Source: Granulicella tundricola MP5ACTX9
Lineage (GTDB): Bacteria; Acidobacteriota; Terriglobia; Terriglobales; Acidobacteriaceae
Assembly (NCBI RefSeq): GCF_000178975.2
Contig: NC_015064.1
Coordinates: forward strand, 3,162,001-3,226,000
Direction of reading: 5' to 3'
DNA length: 64,000 bases
Shown here in pieces: positions 18,798 to 25,281 of this stretch (positions are counted from its first letter, which is position 1; each line of letters opens with the position of its first letter). Both the position numbers and the translations under genes were made by a program. The notes under the pieces were generated by a model that was not told where the DNA came from, ran no database searches, and was given only the letters and a program-made list of their open reading frames with translations.

Positions 18798-19013
18798 TTC
18801 AGTTTCCTTCAGGCGCACGTTCTCGCTGACCTGGTGCGCGTCTTCTCCAGGCAGCCTCCGAACTCCGACAGATCCGGTCCGATATGTCTAATTTACACGA
18901 TCTAGGACTGATCCAGTCCACGTTCATTGAATTTTTATGCAGTCTTTTTCATCTTCACTGCTTCCCACCAACAAACTGCCGCGTCCACGCATGGAATCGA
19001 CATCTCACCCTGT

Positions 19014-19574
19014 ATGCGTCATCACTTTCAGGCCGAGCAATGGCTCCCCTATCCCATCGAGCACGTCTTCGCCTTCTTCTCCAACCCGGAGAATCTTCCG
19101 CGCCTCATGCCCGCATGGCAGAAGGCCCGCATCGAGGAGGCCGCCTTCGCACCGCCGCCTCCGCGCCCTGCAGGCCTGCCTATCTTTCCCGGCATCGTAG
19201 CCGGAGCGGGCACCCGCATGACCATCAGCTTCCGGCCGATTCCCTTCTCACCCATCCGCGTACCCTGGGATGCGGAGATTACGGAGTTCACCTGGAACGA
19301 GCACTTCTGCGACGTGCAGCACCGCGGCCCGTTCAAGTTCTGGCGGCACTGCCATCGCCTCACGCCGGAGCCCCGCGCCAACACCGGACGTGAGGTCCAG
19401 GGCACGCTGATACGGGACGAGGTCGAATACGAACTCCCCCTCGGCCCACTCGGCGAGCTAGCCGCAAAGCTCTTCGCCCCCGCGCAGTTCAAGTCCATCT
19501 TCGACTTCCGCCACAAGCGCACCGCGGAGCTCATGCCCCTGCTACGGGTGAGAGAAACGCCGCGCGCCCGCTAA
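19014..19574 (+). CDS. SRPBCC-superfamily ligand-binding protein
   Basis: About 186 residues starting MRHHFQAEQWLPYPIEHVFAFF, the standard opening strand and helix of SRPBCC/polyketide-cyclase folds. It also has NPENLPRLMP, ITEFTWNEHFCDVQHRGPFKFW and a C-terminal helix LFDFRHKRTAEL-like segment. These proteins bind hydrophobic ligands; no specific ligand can be inferred. The frame extends upstream to 18927, but the conserved fold begins at 19014. It ends 9 bases before ruvX, suggesting co-transcription. Confidence 0.8.
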   Translation: MRHHFQAEQWLPYPIEHVFAFFSNPENLPRLMPAWQKARIEEAAFAPPPPRPAGLPIFPGIVAGAGTRMTISFRPIPFSPIRVPWDAEITEFTWNEHFCDVQHRGPFKFWRHCHRLTPEPRANTGREVQGTLIRDEVEYELPLGPLGELAAKLFAPAQFKSIFDFRHKRTAELMPLLRVRETPRAR

Positions 19575-19583
19575 ACTAGCCGT

Positions 19584-20015
19584 ATGGCAATCGGCCGCAT
19601 CATGGCACTGGACGTAGGCAAGGCACGCATCGGCATAGCCCTCACAGACCCGCTGGGCTATACCGCCCAGCCGCTCCTGACGCTATGGCGCAAGACTCGC
19701 AACGAAGACGCCCGCAGCCTCCTGCGCCTCATCCGCAAGCACGAGGTCACCCACCTCGTCGTCGGCAATCCACTCCATCTCTCCGGCGACCTCAGCCCCT
19801 TCGCCGCCAAGGTCCACGAGTTCGCCGAATACCTCCGCGAACGCACCGAGATCCCCATCCAGCTCTGGGACGAGCGTCTCAGCTCCGTCGCCGCCAACGA
19901 GATCCTCGACGAAGCCGGCCACGCGCGCGGCAAGGATCGTAAGTTCATCATCGACCAGGTAGCCGCCGTCCTCATCCTGGAAGGCTGGATGCAGGCACAA
20001 TATAGGCTCCAATAA
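19584..20015 (+). CDS. ruvX: Putative pre-16S rRNA nuclease / Holliday junction resolvase-like YqgF
   Basis: A 143-residue RNase H-fold protein. It has the first acidic strand IMALDVGKARIGIAL (D10), LVVGNPLHLSGDLS, WDERLSSVAA and the C-terminal RKFIIDQVAAVLILEGWM with its catalytic Asp. The family (YqgF/RuvX) is implicated in 16S rRNA 5' maturation and was earlier proposed as a Holliday junction resolvase. Length is typical. Confidence 0.93.
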   Translation: MAIGRIMALDVGKARIGIALTDPLGYTAQPLLTLWRKTRNEDARSLLRLIRKHEVTHLVVGNPLHLSGDLSPFAAKVHEFAEYLRERTEIPIQLWDERLSSVAANEILDEAGHARGKDRKFIIDQVAAVLILEGWMQAQYRLQ

Positions 20016-20043
20016 AAAAGGACCGAGCCGAAGCCCGGTCCTT
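20014..20043 (-). terminator. Intrinsic terminator of the PNGase A-like gene
   Basis: Stem AAGGACCG(A)GC / GC(C)CGGTCCTT with a short loop, with an A6 tract on the plus strand that becomes a T tract for minus-strand transcription. It begins at the ruvX stop codon and may also help terminate ruvX. Confidence 0.85.
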
Positions 20044-20060
20044 CCCTGTCATCGCTTGAC

Positions 20061-21782
20061 CTACCAGCGTTTCGCCGGGCATCCCTTGCCGTCCTGCACG
20101 GCAGTCAGCACGCGTGCCGCCGAGGTCAGCTCACGGCTGAAGCAGTTCCCCGTGGAGTCCTTCGACACATAGCTCGCCGAGCTGGCCGTCGGGCCGACCG
20201 AGTCCACCGCGGACAGGGATGAGTTATAGACCAGCGCATCGCTTGTCTTTACCTCTTCCACCGTGCTGGAGCTCGCCAGCGAGAAGCCATTGATGCCCTT
20301 GCTCTCACTCACCTCATGCTGCTGGTCGGAGCTGACCACCTGCGTGTACGTCCCATCCGTGTTCTGCACGAACGAGTAGTCCAGCTTCAGCGGGAACGCC
20401 CAGTGCGTGGCCGTCTGCTCCGCCAGGAAGCCCAGCCGCGTCGTGGTCTTCGAATCCACCGTACTCGTCTGGTTGATGTTCTGAATCTCCGGCACACCAG
20501 AGGTCGCTACGTTGAACTTCTGGTTGCTGTCGAAGTTCACCGTAGACTCGACCGTCGTCTCCACGCGTCCCAGGCCCGTATTGACGTATCCCTTCACCAC
20601 AAACGTGCGCTTGGAGGCCACGTCGACGGTTCCCGTCACCGCACCGTTCGCCGTGGTCAGGTTCTCCACTACAGAAGGCACAGGTGCGGAGAACAGCGTG
20701 TTCTCAATCACGTCGCCCCCCGTCTCCGCGCGAAGCTTGTCGCGGTAGAGCAGCAGGTTTGCCGTCGCCAGGAAGTAGCTGTTGGCGTTGTAGACGCTGA
20801 TGCCCACAACGTGCGGCTTGCCGTCGCTCAGCATCCCCGCAAACGGTGTCAAATCCACGCGATAAGGCTTGAAGTTCAACGTCTCCACGCCCGTGATCGG
20901 CTCCCATAGATAAGGATCGATGCCGCCCGTAAAGATCCATGGAGACACCGGCGCCACGCCCGCGGCCTTGCCGTCGATCGTCACCTCCGTCTCACGGAAC
21001 GCAGTCCCGCCGCCAGTCTCCAGCTCACTGGAGACATCGTTCGGCACACCCAGATACCAGAACTCGTCATTGCTCTGGCTCTGCGCCATCACATCCAGGT
21101 AAGCCTTGGTCAGGTTGCGCGGCAGAGTCACCGTCGTCTTGAGCTCGCTGCTCGTCGAATCCAGCTCATATGGGCTGTTCGTTCCGCTCACCGGCACCAC
21201 CATATCCGGCACCTCCGGCGGGAGGTTGCGCAGGTCGGCCGGATAGAACTGCAGCGTCGCATTGCCGTAGATGCCGCCGTTATACGTGCTGTTGAAGATG
21301 TTGTAGACGATGGCGTTGCCGGTCTGTGCGGTCTTGAACAATGCCGACAGATCCGTCACATCACGCTCCACATGCCAGGACGGGCTCAGCGCCGTGCGAG
21401 GCTCCGCCGTCGTGCCGTAGAAGATATTTGCATTGCCCAGGTACAGGCTCGCCGTACGGTCGAACTGACGCCCCGCCGTCACGGTAAAGTCCAGGCTCAG
21501 CACCACCTTCGCCCAAGGTCCTTTGCAGCCTGCTGGAGGCGTATACGACACCGGATGCGCGGAGTAGTCGTTGAACGCCTCATTGCTGTAAAGCGAGACG
21601 GTGCAAGGCTTGGTCGTAGGCCGAGTCACCGGCGGCTCAGCCGTTGCCGGGTTGGAGGAGCCCACCACAGGCGTTGTTGGAACCGTAACCACCTGCGCCC
21701 CTGCGATGCCCTGAGCGCAAAACGCGCCTGCAATCACTGTTTGAAAGATAGCTGCACGAAAACGAACAGAAGTGCTCATCAA
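20061..21782 (-). CDS. Secreted peptide-N-glycosidase A-like protein
   Basis: A 573-residue exported protein with signal peptide (MMSTSVRFRAAIFQTVIAGA to GAQV). The mature part begins PCTVSLYSNEAFNDYSAHPVSYTPP and contains WAKVVLSLDFTVTAGRQFDRTASLYLG and a long beta-rich section. This matches the plant/fungal peptide N4-(N-acetyl-beta-glucosaminyl)asparagine amidase A family, which removes N-glycans from glycoproteins. The likely role is scavenging eukaryotic glycoproteins in soil. It is divergent from the SulP gene and has its own terminator. Catalytic residues cannot be assigned by eye. Confidence 0.8.
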   Translation of the reverse strand: MMSTSVRFRAAIFQTVIAGAFCAQGIAGAQVVTVPTTPVVGSSNPATAEPPVTRPTTKPCTVSLYSNEAFNDYSAHPVSYTPPAGCKGPWAKVVLSLDFTVTAGRQFDRTASLYLGNANIFYGTTAEPRTALSPSWHVERDVTDLSALFKTAQTGNAIVYNIFNSTYNGGIYGNATLQFYPADLRNLPPEVPDMVVPVSGTNSPYELDSTSSELKTTVTLPRNLTKAYLDVMAQSQSNDEFWYLGVPNDVSSELETGGGTAFRETEVTIDGKAAGVAPVSPWIFTGGIDPYLWEPITGVETLNFKPYRVDLTPFAGMLSDGKPHVVGISVYNANSYFLATANLLLYRDKLRAETGGDVIENTLFSAPVPSVVENLTTANGAVTGTVDVASKRTFVVKGYVNTGLGRVETTVESTVNFDSNQKFNVATSGVPEIQNINQTSTVDSKTTTRLGFLAEQTATHWAFPLKLDYSFVQNTDGTYTQVVSSDQQHEVSESKGINGFSLASSSTVEEVKTSDALVYNSSLSAVDSVGPTASSASYVSKDSTGNCFSRELTSAARVLTAVQDGKGCPAKRW

Positions 21783-21854
21783 AGGGCCTCACAAAAATAG
21801 AAAGATGTACGAACGTGAATGCGCTCAAGGTAACACATTTGGGTCAGCCATAGC

Positions 21855-21892
21855 CTCTGAACACCCATTAGGCGGCTGCCCGCTTTTCAGAG
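21855..21892 (+). promoter_or_regulatory. Hairpin in the SulP leader
   Basis: CTCTGAA (21855-21861) pairs perfectly with TTCAGAG (21886-21892), enclosing a smaller GCGG/CCGC pairing. It lies 43 bases before the SulP start. It does not match a riboswitch class known to me; it could be a leader structure or an operator. Confidence 0.4.
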
Positions 21893-21934
21893 AAGATAGG
21901 GGGATGCACAAAACCCGCTCCATCAAGGCCGTGA

Positions 21935-23413
21935 ATGCGTCTCGCTGACGTTCGGATTGAACTCCTCGCCGGCCTCACCTCCGCCCTTTCCCTCGTTCCG
22001 GAGGTCGTCGGCTTCGCTCTCGTAGCGCATGTCAACCCACTGACAGGCCTCTACGCCGCCTTCATCATCTGCCTCATCGCGGCAATCTTCGGCGGCCGTC
22101 CCGGCATGATCTCCGGTGCCGCCGGCTCCATGGCCGTCGTCTCCGCCGGACTGGTCCTCCAGCATGGCGTCGAGTACCTCTTCGCCACCATCATCCTCAC
22201 CGGCATCCTCCAACTGCTCTTCGCCTGGTTCCGCCTCGGCAAGCTCATCCGGATGGTGCCTCACCCGGTCATGATCGGCTTCGTCAACGGTCTCGCCATC
22301 GTCATCGCATCTGCCCAGCTGCAGCACTTCCACACCCGCACCCAGACCGGCTCCGAAGGCTGGATGGCCACCCCCGCCCTCCTCATCATGCTCGGCCTGG
22401 TAGCCGTGACGATCCTGGTCACCGTCCTCCTGCCCCGCCTCACCAAGGCGTTCCCATCCGCTCTCGCCGGCATCCTCGCCGCCACTGCCTGCGCCTTCGC
22501 CTTCGGCATCCACACCCGCACGGTGGGCGATCTCGCCTCCATCAAAGGCACCCTCCCCACCTTCCATCTCCCCGCCGTCCCATACGATCTCCACACCCTG
22601 CGCATCATCCTGCCCTACGCCCTCATCCTCGCCACCATCGGCCTCGTCGAGACCCTTCTCACCCTCAACCTCATCGACGAACTCACCGGCACCAACAGCC
22701 AGCCCAATCGCGAGTCCATGGCCCAGGGCCTCGGCAACCTCATCGGCGCCCTCTTCGGCGGCATGGGCGGCTGCGCCATGATCGGCCAGAGCATGATCAA
22801 CCTCAACGCAGGCGGCCGACGCCGGCTCTCCGGCATCTGCGCCGGCACCTTCCTGCTCGCCTTTATCCTCTTCGGTTCGCGCCTCATCGAGCGCATTCCC
22901 CTCGCCGCGCTCGTCGGCGTCATGTTCGTCGTCTCAGCCGAAACCTTCAGTTGGAAGAGCCTCAAAGGCTTCGCCCGCATCCCCCGCCACGACACCATGG
23001 TCATGCTCGTCGTAACGGCTGTGACCGTGCTCGCCAACCTCGCAGTCGCCGTTGTCGCAGGCATCGTCATCGCAGCCCTGGTCTTCGCCTGGGACCACGC
23101 ACAGGAGCTTGAAGTCACCATCACGGAAGAGCCCGGCAGCAAGACCTACCGTCTGAAGGGCAGCCTCTTCTTCGCCTCCGCAGCCCAGTTCACAAGCTTC
23201 TTCCAACCCAAGTTCGACCCCGCAGAGGTCTTCCTCGAATTCCACGAAGCCCGCATCATGGACTCCTCCGCACTGGAAGCAGTCGAGGCCCTCGCCACGC
23301 GTTACCGCGAACAGGGCAAACGCCTCCACCTCCACGGCCTCAGCGAAAGCTGCGACAAGCTCCTACGCCGCAAGGACGGAGCCGGCCTGCTCCTGTCACT
23401 AGCTGACTCCTAG
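21935..23413 (+). CDS. SulP-family anion permease with STAS domain
   Basis: A 492-residue inner-membrane SLC26/SulP transporter. The N-terminal transmembrane core carries the family signature (ELLAGLTSALSLVPEVVGFALVA, then NPLTGLYAAFI, GAAGSMAVV, NGLAIVIASAQLQHF). A C-terminal cytoplasmic STAS domain follows (about 400-490, VFLEFHEARIMDSSALEAVE). It probably takes up sulfate, bicarbonate or another anion; the substrate is not determined by sequence. An in-frame TGA directly precedes the ATG at 21935, fixing the earliest start. A 14-residue frame (21904-21948) overlaps this start and could couple translation. Confidence 0.93.
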   Translation: MRLADVRIELLAGLTSALSLVPEVVGFALVAHVNPLTGLYAAFIICLIAAIFGGRPGMISGAAGSMAVVSAGLVLQHGVEYLFATIILTGILQLLFAWFRLGKLIRMVPHPVMIGFVNGLAIVIASAQLQHFHTRTQTGSEGWMATPALLIMLGLVAVTILVTVLLPRLTKAFPSALAGILAATACAFAFGIHTRTVGDLASIKGTLPTFHLPAVPYDLHTLRIILPYALILATIGLVETLLTLNLIDELTGTNSQPNRESMAQGLGNLIGALFGGMGGCAMIGQSMINLNAGGRRRLSGICAGTFLLAFILFGSRLIERIPLAALVGVMFVVSAETFSWKSLKGFARIPRHDTMVMLVVTAVTVLANLAVAVVAGIVIAALVFAWDHAQELEVTITEEPGSKTYRLKGSLFFASAAQFTSFFQPKFDPAEVFLEFHEARIMDSSALEAVEALATRYREQGKRLHLHGLSESCDKLLRRKDGAGLLLSLADS

Positions 23414-23415
23414 TT

Positions 23416-23718
23416 CTAGTTTTCTGTCATCTCCGCCGCCGCGTCCTTGATAGCCTGCTCCGGCACCCCATGAGCCAGCAACCTCTGACTGAACTCCTCC
23501 ACGGCACTCTCCTTCACCCGCAGTGCCTCCCTCTCGGCCAGATGCTTCCGCAGCCCATTCGAGATATAAGCCCGAATCAGCGCCTGGTATCCGCCAAATC
23601 CAAGCGTAGGCGCAACCTCCTTGAGATCTTCGATCACATGATCCGGCAAACGCAGTGAGATCAGGGTCATCGGTTTATCAGCCTGCATATTGCGCTTGAT
23701 GCGTTCAGTCATTTTCAT
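23416..23718 (-). CDS. brnA: BrnA-like CopG/RHH antitoxin
   Basis: About 100 residues from MKMTERIKRNMQADKP. The ribbon-helix-helix style core TLISLRLPDHVIEDLKEVAPTLGFGGYQALIRAYISNGLRKHLAE is typical of BrnA antitoxins encoded downstream of BrnT. The start at 23718 lies inside the end of brnT (14-base overlap). An upstream in-frame ATG at 23775 would run deep into brnT and is unlikely. It should neutralise BrnT and repress the pair through the upstream palindrome. Confidence 0.85.
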   Translation of the reverse strand: MKMTERIKRNMQADKPMTLISLRLPDHVIEDLKEVAPTLGFGGYQALIRAYISNGLRKHLAEREALRVKESAVEEFSQRLLAHGVPEQAIKDAAAEMTEN

Positions 23719-24001
23719 AGCGTCTCCTTTCCGCCCGTTCCGCAAGACGCGCGGAGATAAGGCGGAGCACATCACCTTCCCGAACTACATGAACGACGTA
23801 CAGCAATCTGTACTCGCTTGTAAGACCGATACACGCCTGCCGCGCCTCTTCGTCAGGACTGGCATCCTCATACCGAGCCAGTTGATCCAGAAAGACCTCC
23901 CGAGCCTGCTCGAAGCGAACGCCATGCCATGCCAGATTGCGAGCAGCCTTATCGCTATCCCAGACAAAGCGCTGCCCATCGAGCATCGAATGCATAGCCA
24001 T
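23705..24001 (-). CDS. brnT: BrnT-family ribonuclease toxin
   Basis: Up to 98 residues with the BrnT hallmarks: FVWDSDKAARNLAWHGVRFEQAREVFLD at the N-terminus, then RQACIGLTSEYRLLYVVHVVREGDVLRLISARLAERAERRRYE. BrnT is a type II toxin with a RelE-like fold that cleaves RNA. The ATG at 24001 lies at the edge of the operator; starts at 23995 or 23986 (MLDGQRFVWD) are equally plausible and nearer the usual family length. All core motifs look intact. Confidence 0.9.
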   Translation of the reverse strand: MAMHSMLDGQRFVWDSDKAARNLAWHGVRFEQAREVFLDQLARYEDASPDEEARQACIGLTSEYRLLYVVHVVREGDVLRLISARLAERAERRRYEND

Positions 24002-24028
24002 ATATCTATTGTATATACAACAGATATA
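24001..24028. promoter_or_regulatory. BrnTA operator palindrome
   Basis: Two 14-base halves, TATATCTATTGTAT and ATACAACAGATATA, form an inverted repeat with a single mismatched pair, abutting the most upstream brnT start. Its AT-richness stands out against the surroundings. BrnA-type antitoxins bind palindromes at their own promoter, so autoregulation is expected. Confidence 0.7.
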
Positions 24029-24115
24029 AGCTTACAGCGACTAAGAGAAGTTTTCCGTCGGCGGCCTGCTGGTCTCGGTCGTGTAGGATGAAGCGGCTAT
24101 GCAGGAGAGATTCAC

Positions 24116-25165
24116 TTGCCAATACGCAGTGCAATTTGGAAGGTCGGAGCAAAACCAGAACCGTTGACTGAATCGCTTCTTGCCAGAGAACAAATACTTG
24201 AAGATATGATTGTCGCCGCTCCGCAAATACTCTCAGATGAGTGGATGTTGATCGGAAGACAGGAGGACACGGGATTCGGCGGAAGGATAGACTTATTGGC
24301 TATCTCGCCAGATGGCTCCCTGGTACTCATTGAACTCAAACGTGACCGGACCCCTCGCGAGGTGGTTGCACAGGCTCTTGATTACGCAAGTTGGCTCAGC
24401 AACCTTCGTGCAGATGAAATTGCTGAAATCTATGATCGTTTTGCGCCAAACAGGAGTTTGGAAGCAGACTTCAAAGCACGTTTTGCCCTGAACTTAGACG
24501 AGGACATGCTGAATCAAAGCCACGAGATTGTCATCGTGGCCGCTTCATTAGATCAAAGCAGCGAACGGATAGTGAACTATCTAAACGAGCGAAATATATC
24601 GATTAACATTCTCTGCTTTCAGATCTTCTCTCATAGCGGCGAACAATTACTCAGTAGGTCGTGGTTACTTGATCCAGTTCGTTCACAGGTCAGCAGTGCT
24701 GCCACAACATATAGCGAATCGGAACCATGGAACGGCGAATTTTATTGCTCCTTTGGCGAAGGAGAATCGCGTTCATGGGAAGACGCGACTCAATATGGAT
24801 TTCTGTGCGCTGGCGGAGGCGTTTGGTATAGCAGAACGCTTGGTCTAGTAAAGCCGGGAGACAGAATTTGGGTAAAAGTTCCCAATATGGGATTCGTCGG
24901 CGTGGGAAGGGTTACGGGACAAGCTTCCCCAGCCGCCGCTTTTACTGTGAAGGATTCTAACGGCATTGTGGTACCTATCCTCGATGTCGCAAAGAAAGGT
25001 ATGTACCACCGTGAGTTTGCCGATGATCTGGAGAAGTGCGAATACTTTATCCCAGTGGATTGGCTGCAGACCTTACCAGTCCGAGAAGCCGTCTGGGAGA
25101 TTGGTCTATTCGGCAACCAAAATACGGTATGCAAACCCACTACACCAAGTGGCGGTTCACAGTAG
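24116..25165 (+). CDS. PD-(D/E)XK nuclease fused to a PUA/EVE-like domain (DUF91/NucS-like)
   Basis: A 349-residue protein. Residues 1-190 form a PD-(D/E)XK nuclease similar to the DUF91/NucS group: an early Glu (E29), D59 in GGRIDLLAI, E73 and K75 in LIELKRDRTP, and Q87 in VVAQALDYASWL. Residues about 207-340 form a second domain (SRSWEDATQYGFLCAGGG, then LGLVKPGDRIWVKVPNMGFVGVG) that resembles PUA/EVE-type folds, some of which read modified bases. The start is TTG with GGAGAG upstream. Base composition is clearly poorer in GC than neighbours, suggesting recent transfer. A modification-sensing nuclease is possible but unproven. Confidence 0.75.
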   Translation: MPIRSAIWKVGAKPEPLTESLLAREQILEDMIVAAPQILSDEWMLIGRQEDTGFGGRIDLLAISPDGSLVLIELKRDRTPREVVAQALDYASWLSNLRADEIAEIYDRFAPNRSLEADFKARFALNLDEDMLNQSHEIVIVAASLDQSSERIVNYLNERNISINILCFQIFSHSGEQLLSRSWLLDPVRSQVSSAATTYSESEPWNGEFYCSFGEGESRSWEDATQYGFLCAGGGVWYSRTLGLVKPGDRIWVKVPNMGFVGVGRVTGQASPAAAFTVKDSNGIVVPILDVAKKGMYHREFADDLEKCEYFIPVDWLQTLPVREAVWEIGLFGNQNTVCKPTTPSGGSQ

Positions 25166-25281
25166 ATCGCCTAAAACAGAAGTTTACAAAATTCAATGTA
25201 GGCGCAGCTTCTAATTAGGTGGCTGACATTCGTTGGGTGGATCACCCGAAACGTATCAGAGCTACGGTGGCTGTGGGCGCC

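Follow-up and report, generated by a model that had tools for sequence, protein, structure and literature searches.

A candidate modification-dependent restriction family (PDC-S11) that joins a NucS-type nuclease to a predicted EVE/YTH base reader, and a probably stray, perhaps broken copy in Granulicella tundricola

Introduction

VcaM4I and other EVE–HNH modification-dependent restriction endonucleases carry a base reader and a nuclease in one polypeptide, with the EVE domain first and an HNH nuclease behind it. VcaM4I reads 5mC and 5hmC by base flipping (PMC7897488). Fusions of EVE to PD(D/E)XK nucleases are already given as putative type IV enzymes in the main text of Bell et al. 2020 (PMC7641849), which also notes that EVE and DCD proteins occur close to type I systems; its EVE–PD(D/E)XK and DCD–PD(D/E)XK fusions and its type I-associated EVE proteins share their domain classes and their kind of neighborhood with the family described here. 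The type I-linked EVE proteins of that main text are standalone or PIN–GNAT–EVE, and NucS/DUF91 is not named in it; the present family may be in its supplement.

The NucS/EndoMS mismatch endonuclease provides a comparison for the other half of the protein, since it shares the catalytic domain but has an N-terminal DNA-binding domain that is absent here. The full-length protein, in turn, matches a single-gene candidate in PADLOC, PDC-S11, where PDC stands for phage defence candidate. Among 100 P. aeruginosa strains, 90% of the 10 that carry PDC-S11 were phage-resistant, which is a correlation only (PMC10855318), and in Streptococcus suis PDC-S11 co-occurs with other defence systems (PMC12813430). 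In the published literature we found no mechanism for PDC-S11 and no report of activity for any of its members. There is also a precedent for a defence gene that accompanies type I genes: in the RRDM island, DarTG2 lies within a type I restriction–modification (R-M) system as a toxin–antitoxin pair between hsdS and hsdR (PMC12255303), whereas in the family studied here it is a single nuclease gene, usually placed after hsdS, that ends hsdRMS.

We analyzed a stretch of 64,000 nucleotides from Granulicella tundricola MP5ACTX9 (hereafter, the window), in which an original prediction, made from the sequence, had proposed a low-GC nuclease fused to a PUA/EVE-like domain as a candidate modification-sensing defence protein.

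Results

The window gene is a member of PDC-S11

The gene had been placed at 24029–25215. The open reading frame exists, and its limits are slightly narrower than those first given (Table 1). It opens with a TTG codon downstream of a likely ribosome-binding site, and we take this start to be right because homologues begin at the same residue. The product matched the PADLOC PDC-S11 profile (PDLC04916) with an E value of 3.1e-149 over residues 1–343 of 349 and profile positions 1–343 of 358; this is a full-length match, and the sole difference found was the frameshifted tail of the window copy described below. PADLOC already lists as a defence candidate the combination of domains that the original prediction could not name, and the EVE–PD(D/E)XK fusions of PMC7641849 make its architecture a known class. 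A useful addition made here is the fold assignment, together with the tight, repeated position of the gene behind hsdS.

Table 1. Features at and beside the nuclease–EVE gene, in positions of the window
Feature	Position	Strand	Remarks
BrnA/CopG-like antitoxin	23416–23733		weak matches
BrnT	23705–24001		E 8e-22
Likely ribosome-binding site	24101–24106	+	CAGGAG, 5' of the TTG start; from sequence
Nuclease–EVE coding frame, PDC-S11 family	24116–25165	+	349 aa as the open frame gives it
NucS/EndoMS-type PD-(D/E)XK nuclease domain	24185–24652	+	residues ~24–179; D59, E73, K75 and Q86xxxY90 invariant
EVE/YTH-like predicted modified-base reader domain	24731–25138	+	residues ~206–341
Out-of-frame remnant of the conserved C-terminal tail	25147–25218	+	KWRFTVDRLKQKF...; one-base frameshift near 25147

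The N-terminal domain is a NucS-type nuclease

The N-terminal part of the protein had been assigned a NucS-type PD-(D/E)XK site formed by D59, E73, and K75. Alignment and profile search bear this out: the three residues are invariant across 79 aligned sequences, Q86 and Y90 of a QxxxY motif are likewise invariant, and residues 25–98 matched Pfam NucS_C (PF01939) with 26.5 bits against a cut-off of 24. No other NucS_C protein was found in the window's genome. In an AlphaFold2 model of the window protein, built from 79 sequences (mean pLDDT 79), the closest structures to the catalytic domain were those of NucS/EndoMS (Z 11.6 and 11.4), with 2vld_B matching residues 24–179 at Z 11.6 and an rmsd of 2.4 over 108 residues.

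The resemblance to NucS/EndoMS covers the catalytic domain and its D-E-K site, but the protein described here has an EVE/YTH domain, and its gene is not a core gene. Against the NCBIfam NucS equivalog the protein scored 32.5 bits, far below the cut-off of 216, and the match was confined to the C-terminal part of that equivalog. We therefore rejected membership in NucS-type mismatch repair, given that the catalytic domain alone matches.

The C-terminal domain has a predicted EVE/YTH fold

In the window model, the linker at residues 192–212 was floppy and poorly modeled (pLDDT <50), and residues 206–341 matched the EVE proteins 2p5d and 1wmm (Z 8.3), YTH domains (Z ~7), and VcaM4I (Z 7.2). The C-terminal domain of an intact homologue was also modeled alone (pLDDT 86.8, pTM 0.83). 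All 50 of the 50 matches listed for that model were EVE or YTH chains, the best solved ones being EVE proteins and VcaM4I (Z 10–10.6). Among them were the EVE protein PH1033 (Z 10.6), VcaM4I (Z 10.3, spanning the whole domain), MJECL36 (Z 9.6), and YTHDC1 (9.2), and Foldseek listed the same EVE/YTH group plus THYN1. The earlier suggestion of a PUA/EVE-like fold is thus upheld by structure prediction and fold search: in these models the fold is clearly EVE/YTH, of the PUA superfamily, and such a fold does not in itself imply binding. EVE and YTH domains also bind RNA, so that DNA is only the probable target of the nuclease–EVE protein.

At the level of sequence, the C-terminal domain had no credible Pfam match, a listing of 25 Pfam families across the 79 members did not include EVE (PF01878), and an hhalign comparison with 12 EVE sequences was weak (probability 25.5, E 7.5e-4). 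A mapping of the VcaM4I pocket (P24, W82, Y130, and Q128) onto the family by spacing and by eye was set aside, since hhalign gave no full-length register. By eye, F229 lies 19 residues before G248–D249, like the EVE tryptophan before its GD, and FGNQN at 332–336 may be the wedge, judged by eye from sequence position and not from superposition.

Homologues are repeatedly found behind type I restriction operons

A contig scan found 200 relatives, and we kept 80 with 57–70% identity over their full length, from Proteobacteria, Acidobacteria, Chloroflexi, Planctomycetes, Verrucomicrobia, and others. Hsd genes, counted from a tblastn pass, were present in 43 of these 80 loci (37 of 67 among those with at least 3 kb upstream), and the same Hsd queries gave zero matches in 397 kb of unrelated control loci. 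The gene stood directly behind hsdS on the same strand in 23 of the 80, at distances ranging from a 4 bp overlap to 157 bp (median 17 bp), with hsdR–hsdM–hsdS–gene as the usual order. On the tree, the association with type I systems changes 13–17 times, at least seven of them on well-supported branches, indicating that it has been repeatedly made or lost.

For loci without a detected type I system, we examined ten neighbors that were picked by hand and not at random. Seven strongly matched other defence families (Hhe, type IIG/ISP R-M, Tmt, a DISARM-like methylase, SspC, PDC-S65, and DarT), and two more matched type IV enzymes weakly. The homologues are not core, vertically inherited repair genes, which would have refuted the original prediction, since copies with 57–70% identity occur in unrelated phyla, many of them beside defence genes, and no close copy was found in 36 congeners.

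At two loci (L071:5770–9951 and L078:5799–9950), a DISARM/type IIG-like methyltransferase lies 47–48 bp upstream of the homologue, so that another kind of R-M gene takes the usual place of hsdS, and at two Pseudomonas loci (L017 and L031) a DarT/DarG-like pair lies ~0.4–3 kb upstream of it. A more distant, full-length relative (32% identity) sits on conjugative plasmids of Klebsiella, and on the Klebsiella variicola plasmid (L183:5968–7053) a PD-(D/E)XK nuclease gene is directly upstream. On a plasmid of Halalkalicoccus jeotgali (L182:5971–10357), a 44% identical relative is followed by PD-(D/E)XK and UvrD helicase genes; because this plasmid is haloarchaeal, the family crosses domains. The best viral structural match in BFVD was Gp54 of Bacillus phage G (G3MBC4), with 336 aligned columns, an E value of 2.2e-8, and a TM-score of only 0.33–0.38, and a phage may carry a protein of this architecture.

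The window copy is horizontally acquired and may be damaged

The foreign composition noted at the outset was confirmed. The nuclease–EVE gene has a G+C content of 48.9% and a GC3 of 47%, against 58.7–64.8% and 72–85% for its neighbors other than brnTA (dxs, sulP, ruvX, a PNGaseA-like gene, and the genes beyond dxs). Only one of the 36 congeners has a clear full-length relative, with 41% identity. Judged by its low GC3 and the lack of a close copy in congeners, the window copy is horizontally acquired; we name no donor because the branch that carries the window sequence in the tree has weak support. A phage origin was rejected, with a single partial, weak match in 50,697 phage records and nothing useful in PHROGs.

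Across 20 congeners, dxs is in most cases followed by a homologue of the SRPBCC-like gene at 18927–19574 of the window, so the block at 19575–25281 (~5.7 kb) is variable and absent from that place in those genomes. This block holds RuvX, the PNGaseA-like protein, a SulP permease, BrnTA, and the nuclease gene, and the comparison is partial empty-site evidence that covers the block from ~19.58 to 25.28 kb and not the junctions of the nuclease gene alone. Many relatives are encoded with hsdR, hsdM, and hsdS, as expected of a type I R-M accessory gene, but the window copy is not: no hsd genes lie beside it, there are no type I restriction genes in the window, and HSDR_N had no match in the window's genome.

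The toxin–antitoxin pair next door, which had been offered as support for a defence role, is real, but it does not provide that support. BrnTA occurs with 78–81% nucleotide identity in three congeners (G036, G007, and G020), elsewhere in the genome and without the nuclease gene; the match ends at 24019, short of that gene, and neither BrnT nor BrnA was detectable in any of the 80 homologue loci. We therefore rejected the pair as evidence, and its presence beside the nuclease gene is probably incidental.

When the locus was compared with five homologues, their residues 1–342/343 matched frame 2 up to 25144–25147, and from residue 344 on they matched frame 1 from 25147. This one-base frameshift, which the original prediction had not reported, costs the window protein its conserved last ~20 residues. 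The lost tail contains KWRxTVERLK, present in some form in all 80 close homologues, with K345, W346, R347, and T349 as nearly invariant columns, and according to the domain model the reader domain loses its last helix with it (helix 147–158 of that model). Either the mutation is genuine or the assembly is wrong at this base, and the window copy may be damaged or inactive unless the shift arose in sequencing or assembly.

At a little under even odds, we consider that the window copy is a decaying pseudogene without present function, an explanation that concerns this copy only and is compatible with our preferred reading of the family. Loss of a tail shared by all close homologues, including its nearly invariant residues, points toward decay, as does a composition that has not ameliorated; on the other side, the remaining frame is open with every catalytic residue kept, and a single-base assembly error could account for the shift. 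The window copy is probably a stray, perhaps broken, member of its family.

Discussion

We conclude that the family probably consists of single-protein, modification-dependent (type IV-like) restriction endonucleases, with a probability of roughly 0.6. Its nuclease domain has intact catalytic residues, and by predicted fold, both in the window model and in the intact homologue modeled alone, the second domain belongs to a known class of sensing domain. Sequence and models together support a NucS-type nuclease that lacks the N-terminal NucS DNA-binding domain and is joined to an EVE/YTH base reader. The original prediction of a modification-sensing defence protein with type IV-like architecture is supported by this pairing, by the PDC-S11 match, and by the defence neighborhoods, with the function itself putative; the gene most likely acts against viruses and belongs to a candidate family that was already listed. 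The reading also draws on the patchy distribution, the foreign composition, and, as a correlation only, the phage resistance of P. aeruginosa strains with PDC-S11. Of the worked examples, VcaM4I comes closest (PMC7897488); its nuclease is of another kind, and its domains run in the opposite order.

By analogy with VcaM4I, the EVE domain would flip out a modified base in the DNA of an invading phage and take it into its pocket, and the nuclease would then cut near the flipped base, so that family members would be expected to cut modified DNA. As a fourth gene behind hsdRMS, such an enzyme would act on phages that escape the type I enzyme through base modification. The window copy is an acquired solo gene whose reader domain loses its last helix through the frameshift. 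We ranked the alternative functions below this one on three grounds: solo copies are numerous, the catalytic domain is of NucS type, and the distribution is patchy.

It is unlikely that the protein acts only as a partner of type I complexes, sensing the state of the DNA or of the complex (e.g., N6-methyladenine made by HsdM) and cutting or regulating in response, with solo copies as stranded remnants. Its placement directly after hsdS, seen in at least 23 loci, and the overall frequency of hsd genes are consistent with such a role; YTH-type domains can read N6-methyladenine, and the predicted fold resembles m6A-reading YTH domains (Z ~9) no less closely than it does many EVE proteins. However, many conserved solo copies with intact active sites occur in diverse phyla, and these, together with the well-supported changes of association, argue that the gene is independent of the type I system; in addition, an enzyme that cut at m6A made by the host itself would destroy its own cell. 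We hold it distinctly unlikely that the EVE-nuclease is a genuine fourth subunit of some type I enzymes (HsdR-M-S plus reader-nuclease), in which one complex would restrict both unmodified and protectively modified phage DNA and solo copies would have become detached.

An abortive-infection or RNA-directed effector, in which the EVE domain would bind a small ligand or read modified RNA, be it tRNA or phage transcripts, and the nuclease would kill or arrest the cell, seems quite improbable. The catalytic domain is nearest to the DNA endonucleases NucS/EndoMS, and PD-(D/E)XK enzymes of this kind are generally known to cut DNA. What speaks for an RNA effector is that YTH and many EVE domains are RNA readers or have no assigned ligand, and that CoCoNuTs, which are type IV relatives, are predicted to target RNA (PMC11090510). 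Finally, a NucS-type DNA-repair nuclease whose EVE domain recognizes damaged or mismatched host bases would fit the catalytic domain but is very improbable, with the N-terminal NucS domain missing, scores far under the NucS equivalog cut-offs, no copy in most congeners, and homologues in defence neighborhoods.

For the window's genome this is a minor find of one acquired, possibly broken copy. For the family, if intact members of PDC-S11 do act as modification-dependent restriction endonucleases and cut modified DNA, a widespread defence candidate gains a mechanism, and enzymes that cut modified DNA are useful tools for mapping it. If this reading is true, type I operons would repeatedly gain, as their last gene, an enzyme against the phages that evade them by base modification.
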